A DNA stretch of 51,090 bases from a virus, in IMG/VR virus record IMGVR_UViG_3300021079_000012, positions 1-51,090 of that record. The stretch is one strand, 5' to 3'. This document shows, piece by piece, positions 255 through 39,519 of this stretch. The notes beneath the pieces were generated by a model. That model saw nothing but the letters and a program-made list of their open reading frames with translations, searched no databases and had not been told where the DNA came from. The first letter of the stretch is position 1, and each line of letters begins with the position of its first letter. A program made the position numbers and the translations under genes.

Positions 255-3047
255 GTGATTAGTCAAGAAGAAATTAAATCGTTCCTAGAAGGGAACGACC
301 CTGAAGAGCACATCGTTGCCATTGAGTTTGATTACCTAACGGACTCAATTTATAAAATCAAAGAAATTCCTGGGAAAGGAAAAGAAATACGTAAAGATAC
401 TTTTACCCCATTTGCGTGGGTTGGTGATTTACGTGGTTTAAATTTTTATCAATCATCAAAAGGTCTTCAGAAAGAGGCCATGTCCAAACATGGAATTATG
501 ATTGAGAAATTAGAGACCAAAGGTAATGACAGATTAGAACAAGGATTAAAATATATTGTCAAATGTTTAAAAGGTTATCGACAATTAATCCAATTTTTTA
601 GAGAGGGTGGGGTAGACCCATGGGGAGAAAACACCAAAGACAAGATTATGATTCTACCTCCTGTAGAACAATATCTAATTTCAAGAGAGAAACGTTTATT
701 TAAAGGATATGAAGAATACAATGACATCACTCGATTTGTATTCGACTTAGAGACGACCGCGTTAGAACCAAAAGACGGTCGTATATTCATGATAGGAATT
801 AAAACTAATAAAGGTTATCAGAAAGTTATTGAGTGTTCGGATGAGGATGAGGAACGCAGAGGTTTGGTTGAATTCTTTAGAATTATTGATGAATTAAAAC
901 CAAGTATTATTGGTGGGTACAATTCGGCAAACTTCGATTGGTTTTGGATATTGGAGAGGTGTAAGGCACTTCATTTAGACATTAAAAAAATCTGTCATAC
1001 CTTAAATCCAAAACAAAATTTAAGACAGAGCGAAAATATGTTAAAACTTGCCAATGAGGTTGAGAGATACAATCAAGTTGGTATTTGGGGTTATAATGTA
1101 ATTGATATTATTCACTCTGTAAGACGAGCTCAAGCAATTAATTCGGGTATTAAGTCTGCGGGTTTGAAGTACATTACTCAGTACATTAAAGCCGAGGCCC
1201 CTGACCGTGTATATATATCCCATGAAGAGATTGGGTCAATGTATAAGGATAAAAATGAATATTGGTTAAATGTTAAAAACGGTAAATACAAAAGAGCGGA
1301 TAAACCCGAATTCAATGATTTAGATACTCGATTTCCTGGAACTTATATTAAAGTTACGGGAGATAATATTGTAGAGAGATATCTTGACGATGACTTAGAG
1401 GAAACATTATTGGTCGATGACGAGTTTAATCAAGGAACTTTTCTATTGGCTTCATTAGTACCAACAACTTACGAAAGAGTTTCAACAATGGGAACTGCGA
1501 CATTATGGCGGATGATTATGTTAGCATGGTCATATAAACATAAATTGGCAATTCCAAAAAAAGAACAAAAAACCGATTTTGTAGGAGGATTATCAAGACT
1601 ACTTAAAGTTGGATATTCAAGAAACGTATTAAAACTCGATTACTCATCACTATATCCAGCAATTCAATTAACCCACGATGTGTTCCCTAAGTGTGATGTA
1701 ATGGGGGCGATGAAAGGATTATTGGCGTACTTCCGTAATTCTCGTATTACGTATAAAAATTTAGCGTCGGAATACAAAGACATCGATTCTAAAAAATCAT
1801 TAACATACGACCGTAAACAACTCCCAATTAAGATTTTCATCAACTCATTATTTGGTGGTTTAAGTGCTCCTCACGTTTATGCTTGGGGAGAAATGAACAT
1901 TGGAGAACAGATTACCTGCACTGGTAGACAATATCTTCGACAAATGGTTAAATTTTTTATGAAAAGAGGTTACACCCCTTTAGTTCTTGATACAGATGGT
2001 GTCAATTTTAGTTTACCCGAAGGAGGTGTTGACGACAGAGTTTATATCGGTAAAGGGATAAATTGGTTGGTTAAAGAGGGTAAGGAATACAGAGGTTACT
2101 ATGCCGACACCGCAGAATATAATGATTTATTTATGAAAAATAGTATGGGGTTAGATTGCGATGGAGTTTGGGAATCTTGTATTAATTTAAGTAGAAAGAA
2201 TTACGCAACAATGGAATCCAATGGTAAAATTAAATTAACAGGAAATTCCATTAAATCTAAAAAACTTCCATTATATATTGAGGTGTTTTTAGATAAAGGA
2301 ATTAAGTTATTATTAGAGGGTAAGGGCCAAGAATTTATTGAATGGTATTATGAATACGTACAAAAAATTTATGAAAAAGATATTCCGTTAAAACAGATTG
2401 CTCAAAGAGCTAAAGTTAAACTATCCTTAGATGATTATAAAAAAAGATGTACTCAAACAACTAAAGCAGGGTCATTAATGTCACGTATGTGTCATTTAGA
2501 ATTGGCGATAATTCATAAATTAAATGTTAAGTTAGGGGACGTTATTATGTATGTTAATAATGGAACTAAAGCATCGCAAGGAGATGTTCAAAAGGTAAAT
2601 AAACTTAAAAAGGGATGGAGTACTGAACAACTTCAATATCACTTTGATATGTATGGGGGTTACCCTAAGGAATCCGATACCTCAATGATTCAAATTAATA
2701 GTTATATGTTAAACACAAATGATATTGAAAATAATCCTGATATGAGAGGAGAATATAATGTACCAAGAGCGATTGTGACATTTAATAAACGAATTGAGCC
2801 TCTTTTAATTGTATTTAAAGAAGAGATTAGAAACAATCTAATTGTTAATAATCCTGAAGACAGGTCTTTTTTTACTAAAGAACAATGTGAAATGATTAAT
2901 GGAATACCGTTTAAAGAAAGTGACCAAGACACTGTCAAAGATTTATTAACTATCACTGATTTAGAGTTAAAGTTTTGGGATAGGGTTGGTATTAGTCCAA
3001 ACTATATTTATGAATTGGCGGAAACTGGGTGGGAAGAGTTTGTTTAA
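255..3047 (+). CDS. 43: Family B replicative DNA polymerase (T4 gp43-like)
   Basis: This is the replicative polymerase with 3'-5' proofreading, 930 residues (T4 gp43 is about 900). The exonuclease domain shows Exo I FDLETT (D164, E166) and Exo II YNSANFD near residue 225. The polymerase domain shows motif A LDYSSLYP near 460, motif B with NSLFGG near 530, and motif C DTDG near 580, so both active sites look intact. The start is GTG at 255: an in-frame TAA lies at 246-248, only two codons separate it from the GTG, and no ATG is near. Its stop overlaps the stop of a convergent gene by a few bases (TTAA). It lies beside neck genes instead of within the replication block at 32-39 kb. Confidence 0.97.
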   Translation: MISQEEIKSFLEGNDPEEHIVAIEFDYLTDSIYKIKEIPGKGKEIRKDTFTPFAWVGDLRGLNFYQSSKGLQKEAMSKHGIMIEKLETKGNDRLEQGLKYIVKCLKGYRQLIQFFREGGVDPWGENTKDKIMILPPVEQYLISREKRLFKGYEEYNDITRFVFDLETTALEPKDGRIFMIGIKTNKGYQKVIECSDEDEERRGLVEFFRIIDELKPSIIGGYNSANFDWFWILERCKALHLDIKKICHTLNPKQNLRQSENMLKLANEVERYNQVGIWGYNVIDIIHSVRRAQAINSGIKSAGLKYITQYIKAEAPDRVYISHEEIGSMYKDKNEYWLNVKNGKYKRADKPEFNDLDTRFPGTYIKVTGDNIVERYLDDDLEETLLVDDEFNQGTFLLASLVPTTYERVSTMGTATLWRMIMLAWSYKHKLAIPKKEQKTDFVGGLSRLLKVGYSRNVLKLDYSSLYPAIQLTHDVFPKCDVMGAMKGLLAYFRNSRITYKNLASEYKDIDSKKSLTYDRKQLPIKIFINSLFGGLSAPHVYAWGEMNIGEQITCTGRQYLRQMVKFFMKRGYTPLVLDTDGVNFSLPEGGVDDRVYIGKGINWLVKEGKEYRGYYADTAEYNDLFMKNSMGLDCDGVWESCINLSRKNYATMESNGKIKLTGNSIKSKKLPLYIEVFLDKGIKLLLEGKGQEFIEWYYEYVQKIYEKDIPLKQIAQRAKVKLSLDDYKKRCTQTTKAGSLMSRMCHLELAIIHKLNVKLGDVIMYVNNGTKASQGDVQKVNKLKKGWSTEQLQYHFDMYGGYPKESDTSMIQINSYMLNTNDIENNPDMRGEYNVPRAIVTFNKRIEPLLIVFKEEIRNNLIVNNPEDRSFFTKEQCEMINGIPFKESDQDTVKDLLTITDLELKFWDRVGISPNYIYELAETGWEEFV

Positions 3048-3397
3048 TCAATCTTTATCCCATCTGAGGATAATATTAACCATACGTCTTCTACAAATTG
3101 GAATTGTACACAGGAACCTTTTTCTAATAGGAGTTCTTCCCACTCCTCATCAATTAAACCAACATCAGGCTTAATTATTGTTTTAATTAAAGACTTAACG
3201 GTGGTGTAGGTATATTCTTTTGAGTTTAAAATGATTTCAGAATTTTCAGAATCTCTTACAACAATTAATAACTCTTTATTTAACTTGTGAGTTTTTTCGT
3301 GGAGTATTTCCGTACCATCTACAATAATTGTTGACGGTGACATTCTTGTCTGATATCTGACAACATTTTTTCTTGGGGTAAAATTAATAGTTCTCAT
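3044..3397 (-). CDS. Unidentified 117-aa protein translationally coupled to gp13-like gene
   Basis: A 117-residue protein of mixed beta-type composition, with no cysteine pattern, signal peptide or membrane segment. Its ATG overlaps the stop of the upstream gp13-like gene by one base (TAATG on the minus strand), so the two are probably translationally coupled. Position suggests a connector or neck accessory protein, as T4 gp13 and gp14 act together, but I see no clear gp14 resemblance. It is the last gene of the minus-strand island and converges on DNA polymerase, with no visible terminator between them. The function is unknown. Confidence 0.75.
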   Translation of the reverse strand: MRTINFTPRKNVVRYQTRMSPSTIIVDGTEILHEKTHKLNKELLIVVRDSENSEIILNSKEYTYTTVKSLIKTIIKPDVGLIDEEWEELLLEKGSCVQFQFVEDVWLILSSDGIKID

Positions 3398-4524
3398 TAG
3401 ATTACATATATTTGTCTTGGCATTGCCGTAAATTTTTTCTGTTTGTTTAGGTTTTCCGCAAGTAACGCCTCTCGTTCCATAACTTTTTCTGGTTTCAATC
3501 TTGTTAACCTACCTTCGGCACCAATAAGTTCCTCGATTAATTTTGATTTTTCGTCTTTGGCCTCAGTCGCCAATGACGCATAATCCATAGTTAATTCACT
3601 ATCAGGTGTTTTAATGTTTCCACTGAATTTACCTCTAACTCTTGATAACGTCTCTTTAGCGTATGCAAAGAACCATCTACGAATCCATATTTGTGACGGG
3701 TTATTTAAATCAACCCAATCAATTTTATCGAAAGGAACGTCTGATGGTAATTTAATGATATCAGGATTATCTTTTAGACATTTATCTCTATCGGAACCCT
3801 CAACATCATAATAGTGATACCAAACCCTACCTTTTGTCATAGTACCGTTACCAAAATCAAATTTACCACCAGGTGTATTCATTAAATGAATTGCTTTTTT
3901 ACCATCAGGTAACGCGGTAATTTTATATGTTAAATCTCCTGCAATAATTCTTCTTTGTATGTTAATTTCTTGCATTCTAAGTAACATGTCAAACGCGGGC
4001 ATCATAAAGTATCCTCCAGCCATACCACCTCCTTGGGCAAGACCACCTCCACCACCTAATCCGCCGCCAGCACCTAATGCTCCGAAAGACCATGGGTCAA
4101 ACATCATATTGTTTAATTCTGCCGGAGAAAACCATAAAAGTTCGTTGATTTCTCTTCCTGCAGGAATTTCATACATTTGTTGGTTTCTAACTAACTGTAT
4201 ATAATCTTTCTTTAAAACAGAATCACCGCCAGCCTGTAAACCAACAATTTTAGAATACGCGTAAGTATACCTTTCTTCGTAAGTTAAACTTTTTGTGATA
4301 AACGCTTTTGATAATGATTGAGTATCTAAATTAAGATTGTATAATGAGGTCCATTGTGATTCGATTAACCAATCTTGGACATACTGAGAATAATCCTCAA
4401 TTGACAATTCAAGTAAAGAATCTAACATCTCATCCTCGAGCTCAACACTTCTAAGTGGTGCTCCTAACAAGTGCTTTAGTCTTTTATATAATTGACTTCT
4501 TTCTGGTTCTGCGATAACTGCCAT
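3397..4524 (-). CDS. 13: Neck / head-completion protein (T4 gp13-like)
   Basis: A 375-residue protein whose N-terminus (KRLKHLLGAPLRSVELEDE followed by a helix ending YSQYVQDW) matches the opening of T4 gp13, where a short basic helix leads into LGAP, VEL and an LxLYxxY helix. In T4, gp13 forms the neck with gp14 and lets the filled head join the tail. Residues about 148-172 are an unusual glycine-rich run (GLGGGGGLAQGGG) absent from T4 gp13, probably a flexible loop. It lies on the minus strand, although its functional partners gp15, gp18 and gp19 are on plus. A late-type ATATTTAT motif lies 15 nt before its ATG and overlaps the end of the SOD-fusion gene. Confidence 0.75.
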   Translation of the reverse strand: MAVIAEPERSQLYKRLKHLLGAPLRSVELEDEMLDSLLELSIEDYSQYVQDWLIESQWTSLYNLNLDTQSLSKAFITKSLTYEERYTYAYSKIVGLQAGGDSVLKKDYIQLVRNQQMYEIPAGREINELLWFSPAELNNMMFDPWSFGALGAGGGLGGGGGLAQGGGMAGGYFMMPAFDMLLRMQEINIQRRIIAGDLTYKITALPDGKKAIHLMNTPGGKFDFGNGTMTKGRVWYHYYDVEGSDRDKCLKDNPDIIKLPSDVPFDKIDWVDLNNPSQIWIRRWFFAYAKETLSRVRGKFSGNIKTPDSELTMDYASLATEAKDEKSKLIEELIGAEGRLTRLKPEKVMEREALLAENLNKQKKFTAMPRQIYVI

Positions 4525-4539
4525 GATTTGTGTTTATAT

Positions 4540-4547
4540 ATAAATAT
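4540..4547 (-). promoter_or_regulatory. Late-type promoter motif for gp13-like gene
   Basis: Read on the minus strand the sequence is GATATTTATATATAAACAC, placing ATATTTAT 15 nt before the ATG. Spacing and orientation match the motif before plus-strand virion genes, although the gene is on the opposite strand. Confidence 0.5.
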
Positions 4548-6085
4548 CAATTTAATGTATAAATTAACGACTCTTCAGGGAAAACATAAACTCCACGAGT
4601 TATCTTCACTTTTTTATTATTGAAAATTAAAACTTCTTTATTTTTTTTGGTGAAAGCCATCCAATCGGTAGAGTATTTTTTAACTTGTCCAGAGTCTAAA
4701 ACAATAATTTTACCGTCTTCTTGTTTGATTCTACTGAACGGTTTTATTTGAACTGTATTTGTTTTACCGTCAACAGTTACTTTACAATCGATTCCTCCAA
4801 TCATGTCCTCTTTGTTCCCTAACTCTCCAATTTGTTCTACATTGTCGTCTCCAAATTGTTTCTTTAACAAAACAACCGAATAATCTTCGGTTTTACTTCC
4901 TATGTCGTGAGTAATTCCTAACGTCGCCATTAAATTTTGAAATGTCCCTGAGTGAGGAGTAAAAATTCTTGACTTATATTCGTCCAACATTTTAACAAAT
5001 TTTTTGGTTTCACTAATTTGTTCAAAAGGTTTTAACCCAATAATTTTAATTTCGGGATTACCTTCATGAACCATAACTTTGTTAATATCCGTTAACAAAA
5101 TACAAAAACAAGTATAGTTGGTATTGAGTTTATTAATCACCGACCTGCCCTCTGTTTCTAAATCATAGATGCCCGACATTTGGTCGTCACCATATTCGTT
5201 TTGACCATAATAGTTATCAGGATAAATTTCTTGTAGTATCTTTTCAATACCGTGTCTAAAAGTATTTTTAACTTTCGGATTAATGTTAAAAACAAATCTT
5301 ATCGCCTCATTCATATCTCTACCACATTTTTCTGATTTACCCTCAGATAAAACTTCTCGTAATAAAACGGTTTCATCCATTTTTTTCTTTAATCTCATCC
5401 CCAATAATTGATTCACAAACTTCCAATTAACACACTTCCAAAAATTCTGAATATATTCATCTTTCTTATTTCTGTATTTTAAATAATAGGCGTGTTCCCA
5501 TAAGTCTAATCCTAAAACAGGGTAACCCCCATTCTCAACAACATTCATTAATGGGTTATCCTGATTTGGTGTTGAGACAATCTTTAGGGTATTACGATTA
5601 GTTAAAACTAACCAAACCCATCCTGAACCAAATCGGTCTTTACAAACCTCCTCAAATTTAATTTTAAATTTTTGAAATGTTCCGAAGTCTTTCTTTATCT
5701 TATCTAAGATATCACCATTTGGTGTTTGTGTCTTTGGGGACAACATTTTCCAAAATAATGCGTGGTTAAACGCCCCACCTGCATTATTTCTAATTGTTTT
5801 ATCGTACTTACCAATTGATTTGATAATGTCTTCTAACTCTAAATCACCATAGTCTTTTTTTGATAATGCGGAATTTAATTTGTCAACGTAACCTTTATAA
5901 TGTTTGTTATAATGGTACTCCATTGTTTCCGCGTCAATAAACTGTTTAAGGGATGAATAGGCGTAAGGTAATTTTTCAATTCCTATTTTTTTCATTTCAG
6001 TCAAAAAAAGTTTTTGGTTGTCTTTTTTTTCCTCTACGATTAACTGTTCTGTAATTATGTTAATCTTTTCTTGTATTTTTTTCAT
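4547..6085 (-). CDS. Fe/Mn superoxide dismutase fused to a C-terminal PD-(D/E)XK-like domain
   Basis: A 512-residue fusion. Residues about 39-228 are a complete iron/manganese superoxide dismutase: metal ligands H58 (EYHYNKHYKGYV), H108 (FNHALFW), D194 and H198 (DLWEHAYY) are all present, with active-site Tyr66. GG before NH and Gln175 in NQDNP point to the Mn or cambialistic type. Predicted reaction: dismutation of superoxide to peroxide and oxygen. Residues 1-38 are extra, with ITE and LTE sites like those cut by T4 prohead protease. The remaining ~280 residues are not SOD; near 440-470 GGIDCKV followed by NTVQIKP resembles the D...(E/Q)xK core of PD-(D/E)XK nucleases, with a possible helix glutamate upstream. 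The gene sits between an SNF2 helicase and the gp13-like neck gene. The SOD assignment is firm; the nuclease reading is inference. Confidence 0.92.
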   Translation of the reverse strand: MKKIQEKINIITEQLIVEEKKDNQKLFLTEMKKIGIEKLPYAYSSLKQFIDAETMEYHYNKHYKGYVDKLNSALSKKDYGDLELEDIIKSIGKYDKTIRNNAGGAFNHALFWKMLSPKTQTPNGDILDKIKKDFGTFQKFKIKFEEVCKDRFGSGWVWLVLTNRNTLKIVSTPNQDNPLMNVVENGGYPVLGLDLWEHAYYLKYRNKKDEYIQNFWKCVNWKFVNQLLGMRLKKKMDETVLLREVLSEGKSEKCGRDMNEAIRFVFNINPKVKNTFRHGIEKILQEIYPDNYYGQNEYGDDQMSGIYDLETEGRSVINKLNTNYTCFCILLTDINKVMVHEGNPEIKIIGLKPFEQISETKKFVKMLDEYKSRIFTPHSGTFQNLMATLGITHDIGSKTEDYSVVLLKKQFGDDNVEQIGELGNKEDMIGGIDCKVTVDGKTNTVQIKPFSRIKQEDGKIIVLDSGQVKKYSTDWMAFTKKNKEVLIFNNKKVKITRGVYVFPEESLIYTLN

Positions 6086-6102: not shown

Positions 6103-7878
6103 CTAACTCACATTATTAATCTTGTTCATTAACAACTCAACAAAATCACCCTTGTCTTCGATGTTATCACCCATTACGGTATCGATAATATTTTTCTTTT
6201 TAGATAACATATCGTAGATAACACCTTCAATTGTATTCTCAAAAATTGGGTAATAAACTGAGACACTATTTTTTTGTCCGTAACGATATGCCCTATCTTG
6301 AGCTTGGTCGTGGTCCGATGGAACAAACGACAAATCGTTCATAATAACCGCTTCACCTGCAGTTAATGTAATACCAACACCTGCGGCTTTTAAGTTCCCG
6401 ACAAAGACTTTTATTTTGTCGTTCTCTTGAAATTGGTCAACGGCATATTGTCTTTGTGGTTTAGTACAAGACCCGTCTAAATAAACGGATTGTTTCCCAA
6501 AGTGACTATGTATTTTTTGTAATGTATCTGTAAAATTTGTGAAAATTATGACTTTCTTATCTTGGTCAATAATGTTTTGAGCTAGCTCAATTGTATCATT
6601 TATTTTTTCTTCGGCAATAACTTGTCTAACTTTCATTAGTTTAGAAAATTGCACGGTTAATGATGAGGACTCTTCTTTTTTATTTTTATACCAATCATAA
6701 TACTCCCCCATCAGGCCTTCATATAATTTTGATTTTAATCTCAAGTAAATTGGTGAAATGATTTTATCAGGTAAATCTAACACCTCTGTTTTTAATCTTC
6801 GTAAAACTTGTCTGGAAGTCCTATCTCTCAACTCTTCCAAATTAGATGCCCCACTAACATTCCAAATCTTACGGTTACCCGCCTTGAATTGATATCCTTG
6901 ACAATAACGGATTGCGTATGCCATCCAATTCTGAGCAACGGGACTTTCTATTAGGTACAATAAATTATAGTAATTCATTGGTCGTGAAGTCATTGGTGTC
7001 CCTGTTAGTAACCAAAGTTTATCCACACTTTTTACAAAACTATTAACTAATTTAGTTCTTTGAGCTTGACCGTTCTGAATATAGTGTGCCTCATCAATTA
7101 CAATTAATTCAAAGTTACTTTTGGTAATTAGAGAATTTTCTTTATCCTTTAAATCGTAAAAATTCTTTAAGATGTCGTAATTAACGATTACAAAATCGTG
7201 TTCTGTTGAGAAGTGTTTCCCTTCCGCAATATAAACACTTCTATCCGTATAATTCTCAATTTCTCGTTGCCAATTAATCTTTAATGATGCCGGGCAAATA
7301 ATTAATATTTTCTTAGCCTTTGTTTCTAACGCGGCAATAATTGTTGAGGTGGTCTTACCCAACCCCATATCATCTGCCAAAATAAAACGTTTTGACCCCG
7401 CTAATTTTTCTATCGCATCTTTCTGATGATTAAGTGGTGGTCGGTGATTATACTTTGAGTAATCGATTTCTACCTTTTCTGTTTTATGAGTTTTAAGTAA
7501 CGCTCCTTTAGGTAACCAAAAGTCATGAATAGTTTCCCCTGAAAGAACTTTTCCCCAAACATGATAAGACTTTTCTTTTTCCGCTAAAAGTTTTTCTACC
7601 CAAACTTCTTTAGGGATTTCGGTGTATAATTTTTCATCGGCGATTTTTTTTGCAAAATAGGGGTCCAAGTCAACCCATTTTTTTGCTACCTTAGGTGAGG
7701 TTTCATGAAAATTTATAATGTATTCAGATTGTGCTCTTGTGGGGTAAAACTTTTTGTTAGTTTCCTTTTGAAATTTTAATTTCAGAATATAATTATTGGC
7801 ACCAGAATACGTGTCAAGTATTGACAACGCCTTTTGTTCAATCAAGTTGATTGTACTCCCTGTGTTTATATTATCCAA
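6103..7878 (-). CDS. SNF2-family DNA helicase/translocase (SMARCAL1-like)
   Basis: A 591-residue SNF2 superfamily-2 ATPase. Motif I LADDMGLGKTTS lies near 167, motif II DEAH near 260, the GTPM segment (motif III) near 290, and the C-terminal lobe has motifs V and VI near 500-535 (AGVGITLTAG; QAQDRAYRYGQ). The compact two-lobe form with a short N-terminal domain resembles phage and SMARCAL1/HARP-type fork-remodelling proteins. A role in fork repair or recombination, analogous to T4 UvsW, is inferred. The start is TTG at 7878: an in-frame stop lies two codons upstream and no early ATG exists. No late-type motif precedes it in gene orientation. It heads the minus-strand island and is divergent from the gp14-like gene. 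Confidence 0.93.
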   Translation of the reverse strand: MDNINTGSTINLIEQKALSILDTYSGANNYILKLKFQKETNKKFYPTRAQSEYIINFHETSPKVAKKWVDLDPYFAKKIADEKLYTEIPKEVWVEKLLAEKEKSYHVWGKVLSGETIHDFWLPKGALLKTHKTEKVEIDYSKYNHRPPLNHQKDAIEKLAGSKRFILADDMGLGKTTSTIIAALETKAKKILIICPASLKINWQREIENYTDRSVYIAEGKHFSTEHDFVIVNYDILKNFYDLKDKENSLITKSNFELIVIDEAHYIQNGQAQRTKLVNSFVKSVDKLWLLTGTPMTSRPMNYYNLLYLIESPVAQNWMAYAIRYCQGYQFKAGNRKIWNVSGASNLEELRDRTSRQVLRRLKTEVLDLPDKIISPIYLRLKSKLYEGLMGEYYDWYKNKKEESSSLTVQFSKLMKVRQVIAEEKINDTIELAQNIIDQDKKVIIFTNFTDTLQKIHSHFGKQSVYLDGSCTKPQRQYAVDQFQENDKIKVFVGNLKAAGVGITLTAGEAVIMNDLSFVPSDHDQAQDRAYRYGQKNSVSVYYPIFENTIEGVIYDMLSKKKNIIDTVMGDNIEDKGDFVELLMNKINNVS

Positions 7879-7940: not shown

Positions 7941-8456
7941 ATGAGTGATTTAAGAGTACCCATAACAAGAATTGGGAAATTTTTTGGGTCCGAAGATTAT
8001 GATTTGGAAATCCGATTTGGAGAAGAATGGTTGTATGGAGATATGAACTTCACCTTAGTATTATATAGAATTGATAGACAAAAAACAAAGACGGACAACG
8101 TTTACGGAGAGACTGTAAGTGATGGTATTAAATTTTTACCACCAATTGAATTTAAAGGTCATGTTCAGATTATGGCTCCTGAGAATAAAAACTTAGGTAA
8201 TTCTAAAATTGAACAGTTTGAACCAGGTAATTTAAAAGTTTCTGTTTATCAAAAACAATTAGATGAGTTAGGTGTTGATATTAGTTTCGGCGATTATATC
8301 GGATACTATGAGACTGAGGATAGAGTTAGATATTATACCGTTAATAATGATGGAAGGGTAATATCCGATAATAAACATACGTATGCGGGATACAAACCGT
8401 TCTATAGAACAATTATGGCATCTGCAGTTGTGAATAATGAATTTAGAGGTTTATGA
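7941..8456 (+). CDS. Probable neck protein (T4 gp14-like candidate)
   Basis: A 171-residue beta-rich protein. Its C-terminal half has a GDYIGYYETEDRVRYYTVNN stretch followed by YKPFYRTIMAS, which recalls the T4 gp14 segment where a GDLIYFP strand and an EINWVEPYDPFYQLG strand form a barrel. It is shorter than T4 gp14 (256 residues). It is the first plus-strand gene after the minus-strand gp13 gene and heads an operon ending in the gp15-like protein, which fits a head-tail joining role. Its stop overlaps the next start (ATGA). The identification rests on a short remembered similarity and position, so it is tentative. Confidence 0.5.
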   Translation: MSDLRVPITRIGKFFGSEDYDLEIRFGEEWLYGDMNFTLVLYRIDRQKTKTDNVYGETVSDGIKFLPPIEFKGHVQIMAPENKNLGNSKIEQFEPGNLKVSVYQKQLDELGVDISFGDYIGYYETEDRVRYYTVNNDGRVISDNKHTYAGYKPFYRTIMASAVVNNEFRGL

Positions 8457-8764
8457 TAAAAATACTAATAACAGAAACTCAATTAGAAGTATTAAGAAGA
8501 GTATACGAAATAGACGACCTTGTTGATTACGTTATTCATCATCTTAATAAAAACATTAAAAATAGTGGGCCAGGTAACAAACCCGATAATTTTGGGATAT
8601 ACGAAAATTGGGTGACACTAAGACTTAGTGAAAGATTTAGAAGTAGATATCCTGATATTAATTTTACAAGACTTGATTTTTTAAAAATAATATCGGCGGT
8701 TTATAATGATAAAATAAAAAAAGGATTTAAACAATCTAAAAAGAATGAAAATTATTATAACTGA
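8453..8764 (+). CDS. Small protein with ITE-type N-terminal peptide
   Basis: A 103-residue protein beginning MIKILITETQLEVLRR, basic at the C-terminus (FKQSKKNENYYN). I do not recognise the family. The opening is close to that of the next gene (MKIIITERQKKMILE), though the remainders differ, which suggests a shared N-terminal tag. ITE and QLE fit the (I/L)xE specificity of T4 prohead protease, so it may be a capsid-targeting peptide. It overlaps the previous gene by 4 nt and the next by 20 nt, so the three are probably translationally coupled. Confidence 0.75.
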   Translation: MIKILITETQLEVLRRVYEIDDLVDYVIHHLNKNIKNSGPGNKPDNFGIYENWVTLRLSERFRSRYPDINFTRLDFLKIISAVYNDKIKKGFKQSKKNENYYN

Positions 8765-9293
8765 AAGACAAAAGAAAATGATTCTTGAAACTGTCACAAA
8801 TAAAGAAGTAATTTGTGACAAATGTGGATGGTCTTGGGATTTATCAGATGGTGGTGAAGACCCTTATATTTGTCATAAATGTGGTCATAATAACTCTGAA
8901 GAAGATTATCGAGGAAAACGTGTTATGGTTTATTATAATTTACATAAACACACTTTTTCTGTAACATATAAATCAATAGTAATATTACATGCCGATTATG
9001 TTAAACTATCGGACGTTGAATTCCGTGTTAGACAAGGAGGTAAAGATAGAGTTAGAGGTGAAAAAAGAAAAAATGTTCACGCATTTGTTATTGGTAATTT
9101 AGTAGATTATTGTGAATACCCTTGTGAAAACATACCACAGGAACCAACAGATAAAATTGTTACATATGACCCATACAAATACAATAGTTTTGTTTATAAA
9201 GGAACAGAAGAACCCGTATACAAAGCCAAAGAGGTTGACATGATTAACCAAAAAAATAAATTATTCGTAATTAACGAAGTAAGAAAGTTTTAA
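8745..9293 (+). CDS. Zinc-ribbon protein with ITE-type N-terminal peptide
   Basis: A 182-residue protein. Residues 1-16 (MKIIITERQKKMILET) resemble the start of the preceding gene. Residues 21-50 form a four-cysteine zinc ribbon: C24 and C27 in CDKCGW, then C43 and C46 in CHKCGH, separated by an acidic loop (LSDGGEDP). The rest is beta-rich and ends KLFVINEVRKF. A nucleic-acid or protein binding role is inferred. It lies between the gp14-like and gp15-like genes, so it could be a virion-associated or internal protein. It starts inside the end of the previous gene and ends one base before the gp15-like ATG. Confidence 0.8.
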   Translation: MKIIITERQKKMILETVTNKEVICDKCGWSWDLSDGGEDPYICHKCGHNNSEEDYRGKRVMVYYNLHKHTFSVTYKSIVILHADYVKLSDVEFRVRQGGKDRVRGEKRKNVHAFVIGNLVDYCEYPCENIPQEPTDKIVTYDPYKYNSFVYKGTEEPVYKAKEVDMINQKNKLFVINEVRKF

Positions 9294-15504: not shown

Positions 15505-15542
15505 AAATTCCTATATATTTATTTATATGGGAATTTTTTTTT
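15505..15542 (+). terminator. Terminator hairpin after tail tube that hides the endonuclease start
   Basis: A 13-bp stem (15505-15517 with 15524-15536, one G-U pair) with a 6-nt loop TTTATT, followed by at least six T: a strong intrinsic terminator for the tube transcript. The ATG of the next gene (15527) is in the 3' arm, and the late-type motif crosses the loop. Read-through mRNA would have the start codon sequestered. Confidence 0.8.
15515..15522 (+). promoter_or_regulatory. Late-type motif for the homing endonuclease gene
   Basis: ATATTTAT ends 4 nt before the ATG and lies across the loop of the tube terminator. A transcript starting here would lack the 5' arm of the hairpin and leave the start codon open. 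Confidence 0.45.
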
Positions 15543-16417
15543 GTAAAATATGTCAAAAAGAATGTGAGGGTTTAAACTCTTTAAGGTCACATTCTATTCA
15601 GAAACATAATATTTCTTCAGAACAAATTTATATTGATTATGTTTTAAATGGTGTTAAACCTACTTGTGAATGTGGGTGTGGAAAAACGACAAAATTTTTG
15701 TCGGTAGGAAGAGGATATTCTAAATTTATACAATCTCACCACAATAGAGTTCCTGGTAAAAATAATTTTCATAAAAATCCTAACACACATCAAAAGGCAA
15801 TTGAAACTCAAAAGAAAAATTGGAAAGAAGGTAAGTATGTTGGTTGGTGGGAAAATAAAACACCTGAAACATTAGAAAAAATTGAGGGAATTAAAGAAAA
15901 ATTACGTAATGATAAAGAAAGGGGTAAAAAAATTTCTAAAAAATTAAAAGGAGTTCCTAAAACTGAGATATCCAAAATAAAAAATTCAAAATCTCAAAAA
16001 ATAAGATATAAGAATAACCCTAAATTAAAAGAAGATGCGTCCATTAGAAGAATAAAATGGTTAAAATCTAACTTATCTAATAAAAAGAGTAAATTAGAAT
16101 CCAAATTTGAGACCATTTTAAACCTACTTAATATTAACTACGAATTTCAACACGAGTTTCAAAAAAGGTTATTCGACTTTAAAATTAAAGATAAAAATAT
16201 ACTAATAGAAGTTGACGGAGATTTTTATCACTGTAACCCTAATACAAAACATTCGGAAGTTTTGTACGAAACACAATCACTTACAAAAAAAAATGATAAC
16301 TATAAAAATACCTTATGTCAAAACCACGGAATGATATTACTTCGTTATTGGGAAAAAGATATTAATGAAAGACCTGAGTGGATAATATCTGAACTAAAAA
16401 AAGAATTATCTTTATAA
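15527..16417 (+). CDS. Free-standing homing endonuclease (Vsr/EDxHD-like)
   Basis: A 296-residue protein. An N-terminal C2H2-type finger (C6, C9, H22, H27) is followed by a second Cys cluster (CECGCGKTTKF). Then come a lysine-rich DNA-binding linker with NUMOD-like repeats (residues about 85-190) and a C-terminal nuclease domain (about 195-296). The nuclease shows SKLESKFE, FDFKIKDKNILIEVDGDFYH and a final ILLRYWEKDI, as in Vsr-like PD-(D/E)XK homing enzymes. It probably cuts unmarked relatives at this site and spreads by recombination. It sits between tube and gp26-like genes, a typical intergenic position. The start is fixed by the zinc finger beginning six residues in. Confidence 0.88.
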   Translation: MGIFFCKICQKECEGLNSLRSHSIQKHNISSEQIYIDYVLNGVKPTCECGCGKTTKFLSVGRGYSKFIQSHHNRVPGKNNFHKNPNTHQKAIETQKKNWKEGKYVGWWENKTPETLEKIEGIKEKLRNDKERGKKISKKLKGVPKTEISKIKNSKSQKIRYKNNPKLKEDASIRRIKWLKSNLSNKKSKLESKFETILNLLNINYEFQHEFQKRLFDFKIKDKNILIEVDGDFYHCNPNTKHSEVLYETQSLTKKNDNYKNTLCQNHGMILLRYWEKDINERPEWIISELKKELSL

Positions 16418-31472: not shown

Positions 31473-31697
31473 ATGAATACAAAATTAATTTTAGATAACT
31501 ACTTAGGTAAAAATACTCGACACACCGAAAAAGATTTGGGTGACGGTAATAAGCAAGTTTGTGACTTAGATACAGGAGATTGTTATACAATCAGAATGAA
31601 AGACGGTCTAATCGAAAGAGTGGACAATACTATGTCTAAAAATAAAAAAATCCAAGTTGAAACAATTACTGGAGTAAAACAATTATTAAATGGATAA
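31473..31697 (+). CDS. Small unidentified late-type protein (74 aa)
   Basis: A 74-residue protein from ATG 31473. An in-frame TTG at 31446 is rejected because it lies upstream of and within the promoter motif. The sequence has a charged middle (CDLDTGDCYTIRMKDG) with two cysteines and ends VKQLLNG. No family is recognised. It has a clear late-type motif and overlaps the next start by 8 nt, so both are probably made late together. Confidence 0.75.
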   Translation: MNTKLILDNYLGKNTRHTEKDLGDGNKQVCDLDTGDCYTIRMKDGLIERVDNTMSKNKKIQVETITGVKQLLNG

Positions 31698-32373
31698 GAA
31701 AATGAAAATAGACGTAAAAATCTTAAATGAGGTAATGAGATATAAGAGTATTAACAATTATATCTCTGAGCAAGATGCGACATTACCACCACCACCTGAT
31801 GCAGGAGCAGTTCCTCCACCACCTGATGCAGGAGCAGTTCCTCCACCACCTGATGCAGGAGCAGTTCCGCCACCACCGCCTGTTGGAGGGGATGTTCCAC
31901 CTGAGACTGTAGATATTTCATCTGACCCCGATGTTGAAAAAATTGGAGGGGAATCAAAAAAATCAAAAGAACTTGACATTACTGATTTAGTTAAATCACA
32001 ACAAAGTGTTGAAAAGAAACAAGAAGAATATTTTGATAATTTATTTAAACACCTTGAAGGATTAGAGAGTAAACTTTCTGATATGGATTCAATCATGAAT
32101 AAATTAAATGACCTTGAAGCTAAAGTTGAAAAATATAGAGTAAAAACTCCTGAAGAAAAATTAGAATTAAGAAGTTTGGATTCAGGACCATTTAATCAAA
32201 AACTAACCGATTTTTTTGAAGATAAACAAGAAGATATGGAAAAGTCAGGAAAAAATGAGTATGTTTTAACCAAAGACGATGTTGAAGCCTATTCTCCTGG
32301 TGATATTAAAAAAAGTTTTAGAAACTTTGAAAACACCGACACCGATATTGATACTTTTTCGAGACTAAAGTAA
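31690..32373 (+). CDS. Proline-rich, coiled-coil protein with putative capsid-targeting N-terminus
   Basis: A 227-residue protein. Residues 1-29 (MDKKMKIDVKILNEVMRYKS up to ISEQD) carry LNE and ISE sites. Residues about 33-65 are three copies of PPPPDAGAV plus a PPPPPVGG end. Residues 95-155 are an acidic heptad-rich coiled coil (EYFDNLFKHLEGLESKLSDM and following), and the C-terminus is acidic and basic in turn. I do not recognise the family; an internal head or scaffold-like role is an inference from the protease-like sites and coiled coil. It overlaps the previous gene and ends in a terminator, so it closes the late tail block before the replication genes. Confidence 0.8.
   Translation: MDKKMKIDVKILNEVMRYKSINNYISEQDATLPPPPDAGAVPPPPDAGAVPPPPDAGAVPPPPPVGGDVPPETVDISSDPDVEKIGGESKKSKELDITDLVKSQQSVEKKQEEYFDNLFKHLEGLESKLSDMDSIMNKLNDLEAKVEKYRVKTPEEKLELRSLDSGPFNQKLTDFFEDKQEDMEKSGKNEYVLTKDDVEAYSPGDIKKSFRNFENTDTDIDTFSRLK
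31789..31869 (+). repeat. Three tandem 27-bp repeats coding PPPPDAGAV
   Basis: Copies at 31789-31815, 31816-31842 and 31843-31869 are identical except for the last base of copy three. Near-identity at DNA level suggests recent duplication or homogenisation. Confidence 0.95.
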
Positions 32374-35935: not shown

Positions 35936-37312
35936 ATGGCGTCAAATAAAAATTTCGATTATCTAGGGAGTACTTTTCAGATACAATTATTAAATCAAAT
36001 CATCGTTGATAAAGACTTTTCAAGGTCAATTATTGACGTAATTGAGAACAATTATTTTGAAAACAAATACTTTAAGATAATCATTCAAATGGTGAAGGAA
36101 TACTACACCAAATACGAACACACTCCAACGTTTGACACTTTAGAACAAATTACAAAATCAGAACTACAACAAGAGTTGGCGTCTAAAATTGTGTTAGATA
36201 CGTTAACAAAAATTAAAGACGCGCCAACTGAGGGACAAGAATTTGTTCAAGAGAAAGCGTTGAAATTCTGTAAACAACAAGAGTTACAAAAAGCAATTAC
36301 TAAGGCTCAAAAAGTAATTGACGGTGGTGAATTTGAGAATTACGATACTTTGGAGGCACTCGTTAGAGAGGCGTTACAAGTGGGAGAAAGAGAAGATGGT
36401 ACGGAAGACGTTTTTAATAATTTAGATGAGGTTTTAAACGAAGATTATAGGCACCCAATACCAATGGGTATCCCAGGTATTGATAGACTCTTAAAAGGTG
36501 GTTTGGCGAGAGGGGAAATCGGTGTGGTATTAGCCCCAACAGGTGTTGGTAAGTCAACATTGTTAACTAAAATCTCAAACCACGCATTTAATTTAGGGTA
36601 TAATGTTCTACAAATATTTTTTGAAGATAATCCTAAAATTATTCAAAGAAAACACATCACACTATGGACGAAAGTACATCCTGATGAGTTAACTGTGAAG
36701 AAAGAAGAAGTAATGGCTAAAGTCAAAGAGATTAAAGACTCAATGGAGAATAAGTTAATACTTAAAAAATTACCATCTGATACAGTAACTATGTTACAAA
36801 TCAAAGGACAAATCAGAAAAATGATTGCTGACGGTGTTAAGATTGACATGGTATTACTTGATTATATTGATTGTGTGGTACCTAATAAAAACCTTGGTGA
36901 CGAATGGAAATCTGAAGGGTCTGTGATGAGAGCATTTGAATCGATGTGTCACGAACTTGACTTAGTTGGTTGGACCGCAACCCAAGGTAACAGAAGCTCT
37001 ATTTCTTCTGAAGTTGTTACAACAGACCAAATGGGTGGGTCAATTAAAAAGGCACAAGTTGGTCACGTTATTATTACGGTGGCAAAAACACTACAACAAA
37101 AAGAAATGAAATTAGCAACTATCGCAATTACAAAATCAAGAATTGGTGATGATGGTGTTGTATTTGAAAACTGTAAATTTGATAACGGTATGTTAGATAT
37201 TGATACAGAATCATCAGTAACATTCTTAGGTCTTGAAGAACAGACAGAAGAAAGAAATAGACAACGAATCAAGGATTTGATTGATAAAAGAAAAGAAAGA
37301 GAAAAACAATAA
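35936..37312 (+). CDS. 41: Replicative DNA helicase (DnaB family, T4 gp41-like)
   Basis: A 458-residue hexameric helicase, close to T4 gp41 (475). The N-terminal helical domain spans residues 1-150. The RecA-like domain carries Walker A APTGVGKST at about 200-208, a catalytic Glu in IFFEDNPK near 225, Walker B VLLDYIDCV near 305, and a Q/R finger region with ATQGNRSSIS near 345. It unwinds DNA 5'-3' ahead of polymerase. The C-terminus is basic. No primase or loader gene is visible in the window. Confidence 0.95.
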   Translation: MASNKNFDYLGSTFQIQLLNQIIVDKDFSRSIIDVIENNYFENKYFKIIIQMVKEYYTKYEHTPTFDTLEQITKSELQQELASKIVLDTLTKIKDAPTEGQEFVQEKALKFCKQQELQKAITKAQKVIDGGEFENYDTLEALVREALQVGEREDGTEDVFNNLDEVLNEDYRHPIPMGIPGIDRLLKGGLARGEIGVVLAPTGVGKSTLLTKISNHAFNLGYNVLQIFFEDNPKIIQRKHITLWTKVHPDELTVKKEEVMAKVKEIKDSMENKLILKKLPSDTVTMLQIKGQIRKMIADGVKIDMVLLDYIDCVVPNKNLGDEWKSEGSVMRAFESMCHELDLVGWTATQGNRSSISSEVVTTDQMGGSIKKAQVGHVIITVAKTLQQKEMKLATIAITKSRIGDDGVVFENCKFDNGMLDIDTESSVTFLGLEEQTEERNRQRIKDLIDKRKEREKQ

Positions 37313-37345
37313 CCAAAAAAATAAAAAAAAAGAATTAGTAGAACT

Positions 37346-39205
37346 ATGGACGCATCACAAAAGATTTTATCGGACTTAACGGTCTATATGAAGTACGCAA
37401 AATTTGTACCTGAATTAAACAGACGTGAAACTTGGGAAGAATTAGTAACCCGAAACATAAACATGCACATTAAAAAATACCCATCTCTTGAAAATGAGAT
37501 TAGAGAGGTATATAAATTCGTGTATGATAAGAAAGTATTACCATCAATGAGGTCAATGCAATTTGGTGGAAAACCAATTGAAATATCACCAAACAGAATT
37601 TATAACTGTGCTTATTTACCAATTGACCACTTGGACGCATTTTCTGAATCAATGTTTTTATTGTTAGGTGGAACAGGTGTTGGTTACTCAGTACAAAAAC
37701 ATCACGTAGAAAAATTACCTGAAATAAGAAAACCAAGTGAGAATAGAAAAAGACGATACTTAATCGGAGACTCAATCGAAGGATGGGCGGACGCAATTAA
37801 AGTATTGTTCAAATCCTATTTTGGGGAACAAGTATCAACACCTGATTTTGATTTTTCCGATATTAGACAGAAAGGGGCTCAACTTGTAACATCAGGAGGA
37901 AAGGCGCCAGGACCTCAACCACTTAAAGATTGTTTACATAAATTAAGAGGTATTTTAGAATCAAAACAAGACGGAGACAAATTAACACCTATTGAAGTTC
38001 ATGACATGGTTTGTCATATTGCAGACGCGGTTCTTGCGGGAGGTATTAGACGAGCAGCATTAATTTCTTTGTTTAGTGCTGATGACCAAGAAATGATTTC
38101 TTGTAAGTCAGGTAATTGGTGGGAAACAAACCCACAAAGAGGTAGAGCGAATAACTCAGCGGCGTTATTAAGACATAAAATTACTCAAGAATTTTTTATG
38201 GATTTATGGAAACGTATTGAGGCTTCAGGAGCAGGTGAACCAGGAATTTATTTTACAAATGATAAAGATTGGGGAACAAATCCTTGTTGTGAAATCGCAT
38301 TAAGACCTAATCAGTTCTGTAATTTATGTGAAGTAAATGTTTCTGACATTGAATCACAAGAAGATTTAAATAACCGTGTTAGAGCGGCGGCGTTTATTGG
38401 AACACTACAAGCGGGTTATACTAACTTCCACTATTTAAGAGATATTTGGAAAAGAACAACTGAGAAAGACGCGTTAATCGGTGTTTCTATGACGGGAATC
38501 GGTTCGGGTGTTGTTTTAGGTTATAACATGAAAGAGTCGGCAAAAATTGTTAAAGAAGAAAACGAAAGAGTTGCAAAATTAATCGGTGTTAATAAATCGG
38601 CAAGAACTACAACAGTAAAACCTGCGGGAACAACATCATTAACTTTAGGAACATCTTCAGGGATTCACGCTTGGCATAATGATTATTATATCAGAAGAAT
38701 TCGTGTTGGAAAAAATGAATCTATTTATCAATATTTAAGCGAACATCACCCTGAATTAGTTGAAGATGAATTCTTTAGACCTCATGATACCGCAGTTATT
38801 TCGGTACCACAAAAGGCCCCTGAAGGTGCGATATTAAGAACAGAAAGTCCATTTCAATTATTGGAAAGAGTTAAAAAAGTAACTCAAGAGTGGGTTAGAC
38901 CAGGACATAGAGGGGGTTCAAATATGCACAACGTATCTGCAACAATTAGTTTAAAACCTGAAGATTGGGATTTGGCGGGAGATTGGATGTGGAATAATAG
39001 AGATTTCTATAATGGTTTATCTGTATTACCTCATGATGGTGGAAGTTATATTCAAGCACCATTCACTGACTGTACTAAAGAAGAATTTGAATCAATGGTA
39101 ATTAAATTACAATCAATTGACTTAACTAAAGTCGTAGAACATTCTGATGAAACAAACCTAAGTGGAGAAATCGCTTGTGGTGCAGGTGGATGTGAAATAA
39201 AATAA
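37346..39205 (+). CDS. nrdJ: Adenosylcobalamin-dependent (class II) ribonucleotide reductase
   Basis: A 619-residue monomeric class II reductase that makes deoxynucleotides by a B12-derived radical. Visible signatures: RIYNCAYLPIDH near 88, GGTGVGYSVQ near 108, PCCEIAL near 311-318, FCNLCEVNV near 322-330 with the thiyl Cys and adjacent Glu, TVKPAGTTSLTLGTSSGIHA near 427, and the redox C-terminus CGAGGCEI. It is shorter than the Lactobacillus-type enzyme (about 740), probably missing an inserted regulatory domain. It needs cobalamin from the host but works with or without oxygen. No B12 riboswitch is seen upstream. Confidence 0.95.
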   Translation: MDASQKILSDLTVYMKYAKFVPELNRRETWEELVTRNINMHIKKYPSLENEIREVYKFVYDKKVLPSMRSMQFGGKPIEISPNRIYNCAYLPIDHLDAFSESMFLLLGGTGVGYSVQKHHVEKLPEIRKPSENRKRRYLIGDSIEGWADAIKVLFKSYFGEQVSTPDFDFSDIRQKGAQLVTSGGKAPGPQPLKDCLHKLRGILESKQDGDKLTPIEVHDMVCHIADAVLAGGIRRAALISLFSADDQEMISCKSGNWWETNPQRGRANNSAALLRHKITQEFFMDLWKRIEASGAGEPGIYFTNDKDWGTNPCCEIALRPNQFCNLCEVNVSDIESQEDLNNRVRAAAFIGTLQAGYTNFHYLRDIWKRTTEKDALIGVSMTGIGSGVVLGYNMKESAKIVKEENERVAKLIGVNKSARTTTVKPAGTTSLTLGTSSGIHAWHNDYYIRRIRVGKNESIYQYLSEHHPELVEDEFFRPHDTAVISVPQKAPEGAILRTESPFQLLERVKKVTQEWVRPGHRGGSNMHNVSATISLKPEDWDLAGDWMWNNRDFYNGLSVLPHDGGSYIQAPFTDCTKEEFESMVIKLQSIDLTKVVEHSDETNLSGEIACGAGGCEIK

Positions 39206-39213
39206 TCTTTAAA

Positions 39214-39303
39214 ATGGAAAAGGTAAAAATATCGTGGGGAAATAATGTAACGTTAACATATCAAGTGTTGTTAGCGTTTTATAATCAGAGAAAAAAGAAT
39301 TAA
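39214..39303 (+). CDS. Putative 29-aa peptide between reductase and CCGNGC gene
   Basis: An ATG at 39214 opens a 29-residue frame (MEKVKISWGNNVTLTYQVLL and on) ending at a TAA at 39301-39303, directly abutting the ATG of the next gene. The stop/start arrangement and A-rich leader argue for translation, but the size is too small to be sure. Confidence 0.45.
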   Translation: MEKVKISWGNNVTLTYQVLLAFYNQRKKN

Positions 39304-39519
39304 ATGACTGTAAACGTATCTAACGATTGGATTGTCCAATTACATATTAAAGAAATTACCCCCAAAAACAAACATTTGCCTACCGATTTTTATTGGGAAC
39401 AAGGTAAAATGGTGATGACGGAAAGTTATCATAAACGAAGGGGTAGTTGTTGTGGGAATGGATGTTTAAATTGCCCATATGAGCCGAAAAATAAAAAAGG
39501 AAATGTGGTTATTAAATAA
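39304..39519 (+). CDS. Small cysteine-rich CCGNGC protein (DUF5522-like)
   Basis: A 71-residue protein with KRRGSCCGNGCLNCPYEP at about 45-61 (C49, C50, C54, C57). This matches my memory of the DUF5522 family of short cysteine-rich proteins, common in Bacteroidota, where a Y-H-x-x-R-G-x-CCGNGC-x-x-CPY motif is conserved. It may bind a metal; the function is unknown. A host-derived gene is likely. It closes the replication block and is followed at once by a terminator. Confidence 0.75.
   Translation: MTVNVSNDWIVQLHIKEITPKNKHLPTDFYWEQGKMVMTESYHKRRGSCCGNGCLNCPYEPKNKKGNVVIK

Follow-up and report, generated by a model that had tools for sequence, protein, structure and literature searches.

A modular slot beside a phage neck gene encodes a superoxide dismutase and a nuclease-like domain as candidate cleavable head cargo

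The window analysed here is the whole stretch of viral DNA, 51,090 nucleotides long. On its minus strand, an open reading frame running from 6085 down to 4547 encodes a 512-residue protein; the plus strand over the same interval is dense in stop codons. A head-tail adaptor (neck) gene is the immediate neighbour and a SNF2-family helicase gene lies upstream (Table 1). An earlier sequence-only reading had taken a superoxide dismutase (SOD) to be only the first part of this protein and the adjoining gene to encode a neck protein, and both points are borne out by the reading frame and by the match to phrog_211. Elsewhere in the window, a 296-aa reading frame with the look of a homing endonuclease (15527-16417) is flanked by the tail tube gene and the structural gene that follows it.

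Table 1. Features at the locus (window positions) and architectures of the slot gene
Feature	Position	Strand	Residues or size	Basis or context
Protein conserved beside the slot, function not assigned, after the neck gene	3044..3397	(-)	117 aa	Similarly placed reading frames in L105, L122, L131, L277
Head-tail adaptor / neck protein, immediate neighbour	3397..4524	(-)		phrog_211 (Ad2), E=9.5e-9; same neighbour across the slot survey
Gene for leader-SOD-nuclease-like protein (candidate precursor)	4547..6085	(-)	512 aa	ATG start; reading frame and translation, full-length IMG/VR homologues
Nuclease-like domain (NucA)	4550..5326	(-)	254-512	AF2 model, Foldseek
PD-(D/E)XK-like core	4736..4948	(-)	380-450	Invariant E400, D427, D433, Q446, K448; helix 380-411, strands 434-438 and 441-449
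Variable linker, candidate sites KMDE↓T (238) and VLSE↓G (248)	5327..5401	(-)	229-253	Representatives, module tracking
Fe/Mn superoxide dismutase domain	5408..5980	(-)	36-226	Pfam, PDB, Foldseek; ligands invariant in 152/152
Candidate prohead-protease site LTE↓M	5993..6004	(-)	28-31	[L/I]xE in 26/26 representatives, 39/39 variants
Variable N-terminal leader, candidate capsid-targeting propeptide	5996..6085	(-)	1-30	Poorly conserved except E30; dN/dS about 0.33
ATATTTATA motif just before the start codon	6090..6098	(-)		Found too in front of the window's neck, tube and gp25-like genes
SNF2-family helicase, upstream neighbour of the slot	6103..7878	(-)		Pfam SNF2-rel_dom, E=2.4e-31; phrog_62
Slot variant: leader-SOD alone			233-259 aa	
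Slot variant: leader-SOD-NucA			512 aa	In the window
Slot variant: leader-SOD and two NucB-type domains			873-897 aa	
Slot variant: leader-SOD-NucB and other modules			878-916 aa	
Slot variant: leader-SOD and a different large module			623-630 aa	
Slot variant: HEXXH module before leader-SOD			364 aa	
Slot variant: HEXXH module, leader-SOD, NucB			708-710 aa	
Slot variant: leader-SOD and truncated NucA			373 aa	
Slot variant: leader-NucA without SOD			278-309 aa	

Relatives of the gene are encoded in at least 597 IMG/VR stretches, far beyond chance. The search for homologues with the same domain order was successful, since all 80 loci that were kept match over 508-512 residues of the query, that is, over the full SOD-nuclease architecture. 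No SOD-nuclease fusion, and no isolate with the gene, was found in the annotated phage collection. A0A6J5L953, a 501-aa entry named 'superoxide dismutase [uncultured Caudovirales phage]', resembles the second half in structure (TMq 0.93) and is apparently the same SOD-nuclease fusion, already deposited and annotated as SOD only. Related large records carry a ribosomal protein S21 gene on the strand opposite to the head genes. It is reported that bS21 phages, with freshwater Bacteroidetes as predicted hosts, occur in freshwater lakes (PMC9723584; superoxide goes unmentioned in its main text), and judged by their genes the phages of this group match them. The bacterial SODs nearest to that of the window are mostly from Bacteroidota. 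In a quick tree, the 28 phage SODs group as a single clade apart from 45 bacterial SODs, the latter chosen by similarity to the window.

The first half was read from the start as a complete Fe/Mn SOD with H58, H108, D194, H198, Tyr66 and Gln175 in place, and this is confirmed. Pfam Sod_Fe_C (residues 122-226, E=7e-39) and Sod_Fe_N (residues 36-116, E=6e-23) score 132 and 82 bits, passing cut-offs of 20.9 and 27, respectively. The best PDB sequence match is the MnSOD 1gv3 (E=1.8e-58), and SODs make up all of the best 50 matches listed when the full model is compared by Foldseek. H58, Y66, H108, Q175, D194 and H198 are fixed in 78/78 homologues. With slot variants added, these six residues together with H62, W112, W196, E197 and Y201 are fixed in 152/152 SODs, so that the four metal ligands (three His, one Asp) and the second-shell Tyr and Gln are all present; L025 and L072 have the SOD with a WEHS spelling. 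Median dN/dS is lowest in the SOD, at about 0.08, and reaches 0.20-0.26 in the second half, 0.33 in the leader and 0.40 in the linker; these values are rough because synonymous changes are near saturation. Fixed catalytic residues and the low SOD value support a genuine enzyme sequence under selection, and the leader value implies that the leader, too, is selected as protein.

The second half, residues 230-512, had been read as nuclease-like and close to a PD-(D/E)XK core. It matched no family in the Pfam, PHROG, NCBIfam and PADLOC profiles and nothing useful among PDB sequences, and scans of the genome collection with it, or with its homologue from a 735-kb phage, returned zero relatives. Since SODs had taken every place in the full-model list, the second half was folded alone. 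Its AlphaFold2 model, built with 38 related sequences, is confident (mean pLDDT 91.5, pTM 0.83), and its leading PDB matches in Foldseek are I-Ssp6803I, archaeal Hjc resolvases, MGME1 and, lower, RecU, all of them PD-(D/E)XK enzymes. The scores are weak (best E 0.013, TM about 0.4-0.5 on target). The string GGID...VQIK is present, and E400, D427, D433, Q446, K448 and P449 are fixed even in comparison with a paralogue of 26% identity; the E, D and Q-x-K recur in the stand-alone protein of the 735-kb phage. An E ... D ... (D/E/Q)-x-K signature is thereby formed by E400, D433, Q446 and K448, the Q being a variant form. Compared with I-Ssp6803I and the Hjc resolvases, which it resembles in this signature and in a weak fold match, the domain has Q for D/E in the third motif, lacks a sequence-profile match and carries, ahead of the core, an additional helical stretch of about 125 residues. 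The nuclease-like reading is supported by the invariant residues and by fold matches that are consistent but weak, no profile family names the domain, and the second half is likely, on the predicted structure, to be a PD-(D/E)XK-type nuclease.

In front of the SOD lies a leader of which little is conserved. Among 26 representatives E30 is fixed, always within [L/I]-x-E, while the rest of the first 30 residues varies, and [L/I]-x-E directly precedes the SOD in all 39 distinct variants (in L056 as LLTEMKN). L/I-X-E is the cleavage consensus of the T4 prohead protease gp21, and the internal head proteins of T4, which are basic, carry N-terminal capsid-targeting propeptides (PMC9026906). The linker, too, contains [L/I]xE: 96% of representatives have it at positions 238 and 248, and at 238 the window reads M-x-E. 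The linker motif follows the SOD in 31/31 variants with a downstream module versus 1/8 without (Fisher p=5e-7, which overstates independence because the variant sequences are related), and 48% of shuffled linkers hold the motif by chance. Plain [L/I]xE shows no clear enrichment at protein starts genome-wide (39% versus 30-37% in other stretches); the stricter [LI][TSN]E, picked post hoc, is the only form that stands out there. A cut after E30 would make M31 the first residue of the SOD; the predicted products are a 24.5 kDa SOD (pI 9.3) and a 30.2 kDa nuclease-like protein.

Leader-like N-termini occur in other genes as well. In the window they are seen in the reading frames at 8453-8764, 8745-9293 and 31690-32373 (MIKILITETQ, MKIIITERQ, ...ISEQ), the second of which also matches Pfam Phage_L5_gp82. 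In G002, a related record of 322 kb (L246-L262), dozens of small reading frames start with leaders like MKKVIRLTESDLVRLVK or MKYLITESK, for example those at 32037-32372, 37247-37621 and 39107-39478; by their sequence, these may be further head-targeted proteins.

The gene occupies a slot that adjoins the neck gene on its upstream side and is in most cases bounded by the SNF2 helicase gene at the other end. At least nine architectures of variable multidomain make-up are found there (Table 1), and the leader is kept while the modules behind it are swapped. HEWVH motifs are present in some relatives, where Pfam matches are sub-threshold; the window protein is without HEWVH. On the tree, the SOD is missing only in L105, in the L122/L150/L321/L346 group and in L127. 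A short remnant of the SOD start, 'INEMKKIEIEKL', survives in L127, suggesting a deletion. In records of 308 and 318 kb whose slot genes lack the SOD, none is encoded elsewhere either. The junction motifs, together with SOD-alone and nuclease-alone genes in one and the same slot, suggest that a precursor is made and then split, and the 'fusion' of SOD and nuclease in the sequence-only reading is probably the wrong picture.

In L105 (15-2843) the SNF2 helicase is split by a long insert with intein-like sequence (DDMGLGKC...VTHNTTST). HNH-like reading frames beginning METKIC... adjoin the slot at L105:5287-6003 and L122:5309-5956; called by eye, they are possibly mobile genes.

A TATTTAT-type motif occurs in the window at 4539-4547 as well as before the genes named in Table 1. 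In some places only about 5 bases separate it from the start codon, an odd spacing for a promoter -10 element. In G002, 48 of the 98 TATTTATA sites are just upstream of reading frames, compared with 2.4 expected by area. TATTTAT precedes 67% of genes with a short [LI][TSN]E leader versus 26% of others, an association that is exploratory because nine pattern pairs were tried, six giving p<0.001 and three (those with TATTTATA) not significant.

A candidate protease and a putative capsid substrate for it are seen in records of relatives; no reading frame of the 51-kb window was recognised as such a protease. Peptidase_S77, the gp21 family, is found in 3/12 related records, both of the 322-kb ones included; most of the other records are fragments. 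In G002 the protease gene is followed by a paralogue of the nuclease-like domain (318 aa; hhalign E=6e-8), then by an acidic protein of 506 aa that by gene position is a putative scaffold, and then by the major capsid protein. Searching the annotated phage collection with the paralogue gave no match. The G002 capsid protein has an I-N-E↓A that aligns on E65↓A66 of T4 gp23, which is annotated as a gp21 substrate with a 65-residue propeptide, and the two other protease-bearing records have this capsid motif as well. This alignment indirectly indicates that protease specificity is conserved. Just after the capsid gene of L358, a reading frame at 6596-7273 carries a leader and, by eye, peptidoglycan-binding-like sequence.

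What is new in the protein is its build, with cut-site-like motifs at the module junctions. We consider it fairly probable that the gene encodes a capsid-targeted cargo polyprotein, cut at head maturation into SOD and nuclease-like proteins. The leader of about 30 residues would carry the precursor into the prohead core, where a gp21/S77-type protease would cut after [L/I]-x-E at LTE↓M during head maturation, and the linker would be cut too, at KMDE↓T and/or VLSE↓G. The SOD released in this way would begin close to its natural start, and the second product would be a PD-(D/E)XK-type nuclease-like protein of about 30 kDa. Because the sites resemble those of head-maturation proteases, the pieces are probably packed in the head and delivered into the bacterium: both would remain beside the DNA in the head and be carried into the host together with it, and there the SOD would remove superoxide and the nuclease-like part would act on DNA. 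The setting would be a T4-like lineage of phages of freshwater Bacteroidota. Also counted for capsid cargo are the paralogue in the head gene cluster, the upstream motif of structural genes and the basic SOD. The median pI is 9.4 for the phage SODs versus 8.0 for bacterial relatives and 5.4 for the phage proteome, a difference that counts as one evolutionary observation because the phage SODs form one clade. The chances seem about even for the wider proposal of a modular cargo slot, in which leader and [L/I]-x-E sites stay constant, the SOD, nuclease-like families and HEXXH module are shuffled, the protease frees the enzymes in the head, and the SOD is packaged and injected.

That the protein protects packaged DNA or the infected cell, an idea already raised from the sequence, is possible and would fit capsid packaging. 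Somewhat unlikely, though the best of the alternatives, is a packaged SOD that mainly shields virion DNA from light-driven oxidation in lake water and does not act in the host. A basic protein is likely to sit with DNA, and the lineage that these phages match has been reported from freshwater lakes (PMC9723584); however, sequence gives no separation of this from action after injection, and the SOD-less relatives of 308-318 kb indicate that SOD protection is not essential.

An unpackaged bifunctional enzyme inside the cell is a less probable alternative. Its SOD would guard the cell, its nuclease-like part would serve phage DNA metabolism (e.g., as a resolvase-like enzyme), and the motifs would be incidental. 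[L/I]xE is indeed short and common, a SNF2 helicase is among the neighbours, and other jumbo phages have SODs that stand alone and are listed as ordinary enzymes. Incidental motifs, however, agree poorly with an E30 that is invariant inside a variable leader, with a linker motif that follows the presence of a downstream module, and with a leader that is constant while modules swap; an intracellular role agrees poorly with an upstream motif common to structural genes and a nuclease-like paralogue in the head gene cluster.

Regarding the second half alone, a DNA-binding or capsid-core domain that merely resembles the PD-(D/E)XK fold would explain the weak Foldseek E-values and the zero profile matches. 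We regard this as doubtful, and slightly more so than the intracellular enzyme, given leading matches that are consistently PD-(D/E)XK enzymes and an E/D/QxK set fixed across very divergent copies. The scaffold role that the sequence-only reading had offered for the SOD fold, as an inactive structural or core-assembly element, would suit a gene beside head genes with a head-type leader always in front, but it is very improbable and was dropped because the active site is invariant, the four metal ligands and nearly all second-shell positions being fixed in 152 sequences under strong purifying selection.

By analogy, the candidate precursor would work like the T4 internal proteins and would resemble polyvalent proteins. 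With T4 IPI-III and Alt it shares a short N-terminal propeptide ending in L/I-X-E and basic cargo, and a T4-type protease and capsid protein exist within the phage group. The leader is likened to theirs by its L/I-X-E end, not by sequence alignment, and we infer packaging here from the genes. The difference is that this cargo is a redox enzyme and a nuclease-like domain with internal sites. Polyvalent proteins (Iyer et al. 2017, PMC5512222), P1 DarB among those compared, are also multidomain and shuffled among relatives and are proposed to travel with phage DNA (PMC5512222, whose main text leaves superoxide unmentioned). Some have zincin-like modules, of which the HEXXH module in some relatives here is a candidate counterpart. 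The present protein differs by prohead-protease-type motifs at its junctions. The ejection proteins of phiKZ and SPN3US are likewise cut by a prohead protease behind a short motif whose last residue is E (PMC10052503), although in SPN3US the consensus is A-X-E and the cargo is unrelated. Cellular Mn/Fe SODs (SodA/SodB) and the SODs of Pseudomonas phage PA5oct and Vibrio phage 2.275.O share family and fold and are stand-alone, whereas the SODs of this lineage form one clade against the sampled bacterial SODs and have a leader and swapped partners. Among the papers searched, none linked phage SOD to prohead processing or to packaging in virions.

If the cargo interpretation is true, this would be a new kind of phage-head cargo, and a lake phage lineage that is abundant (one collection has at least 597 contig stretches) would deliver a ready-made antioxidant enzyme and a nuclease together with its genome. 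It would permit a direct test of whether superoxide counts in the first minutes of infection or in the survival of free virions. Leader and junction motifs would together give a sequence rule for predicting, in uncultured jumbo phages, the otherwise hidden set of packaged proteins. The slot itself would be a natural case of head loading by module swaps between protease sites.
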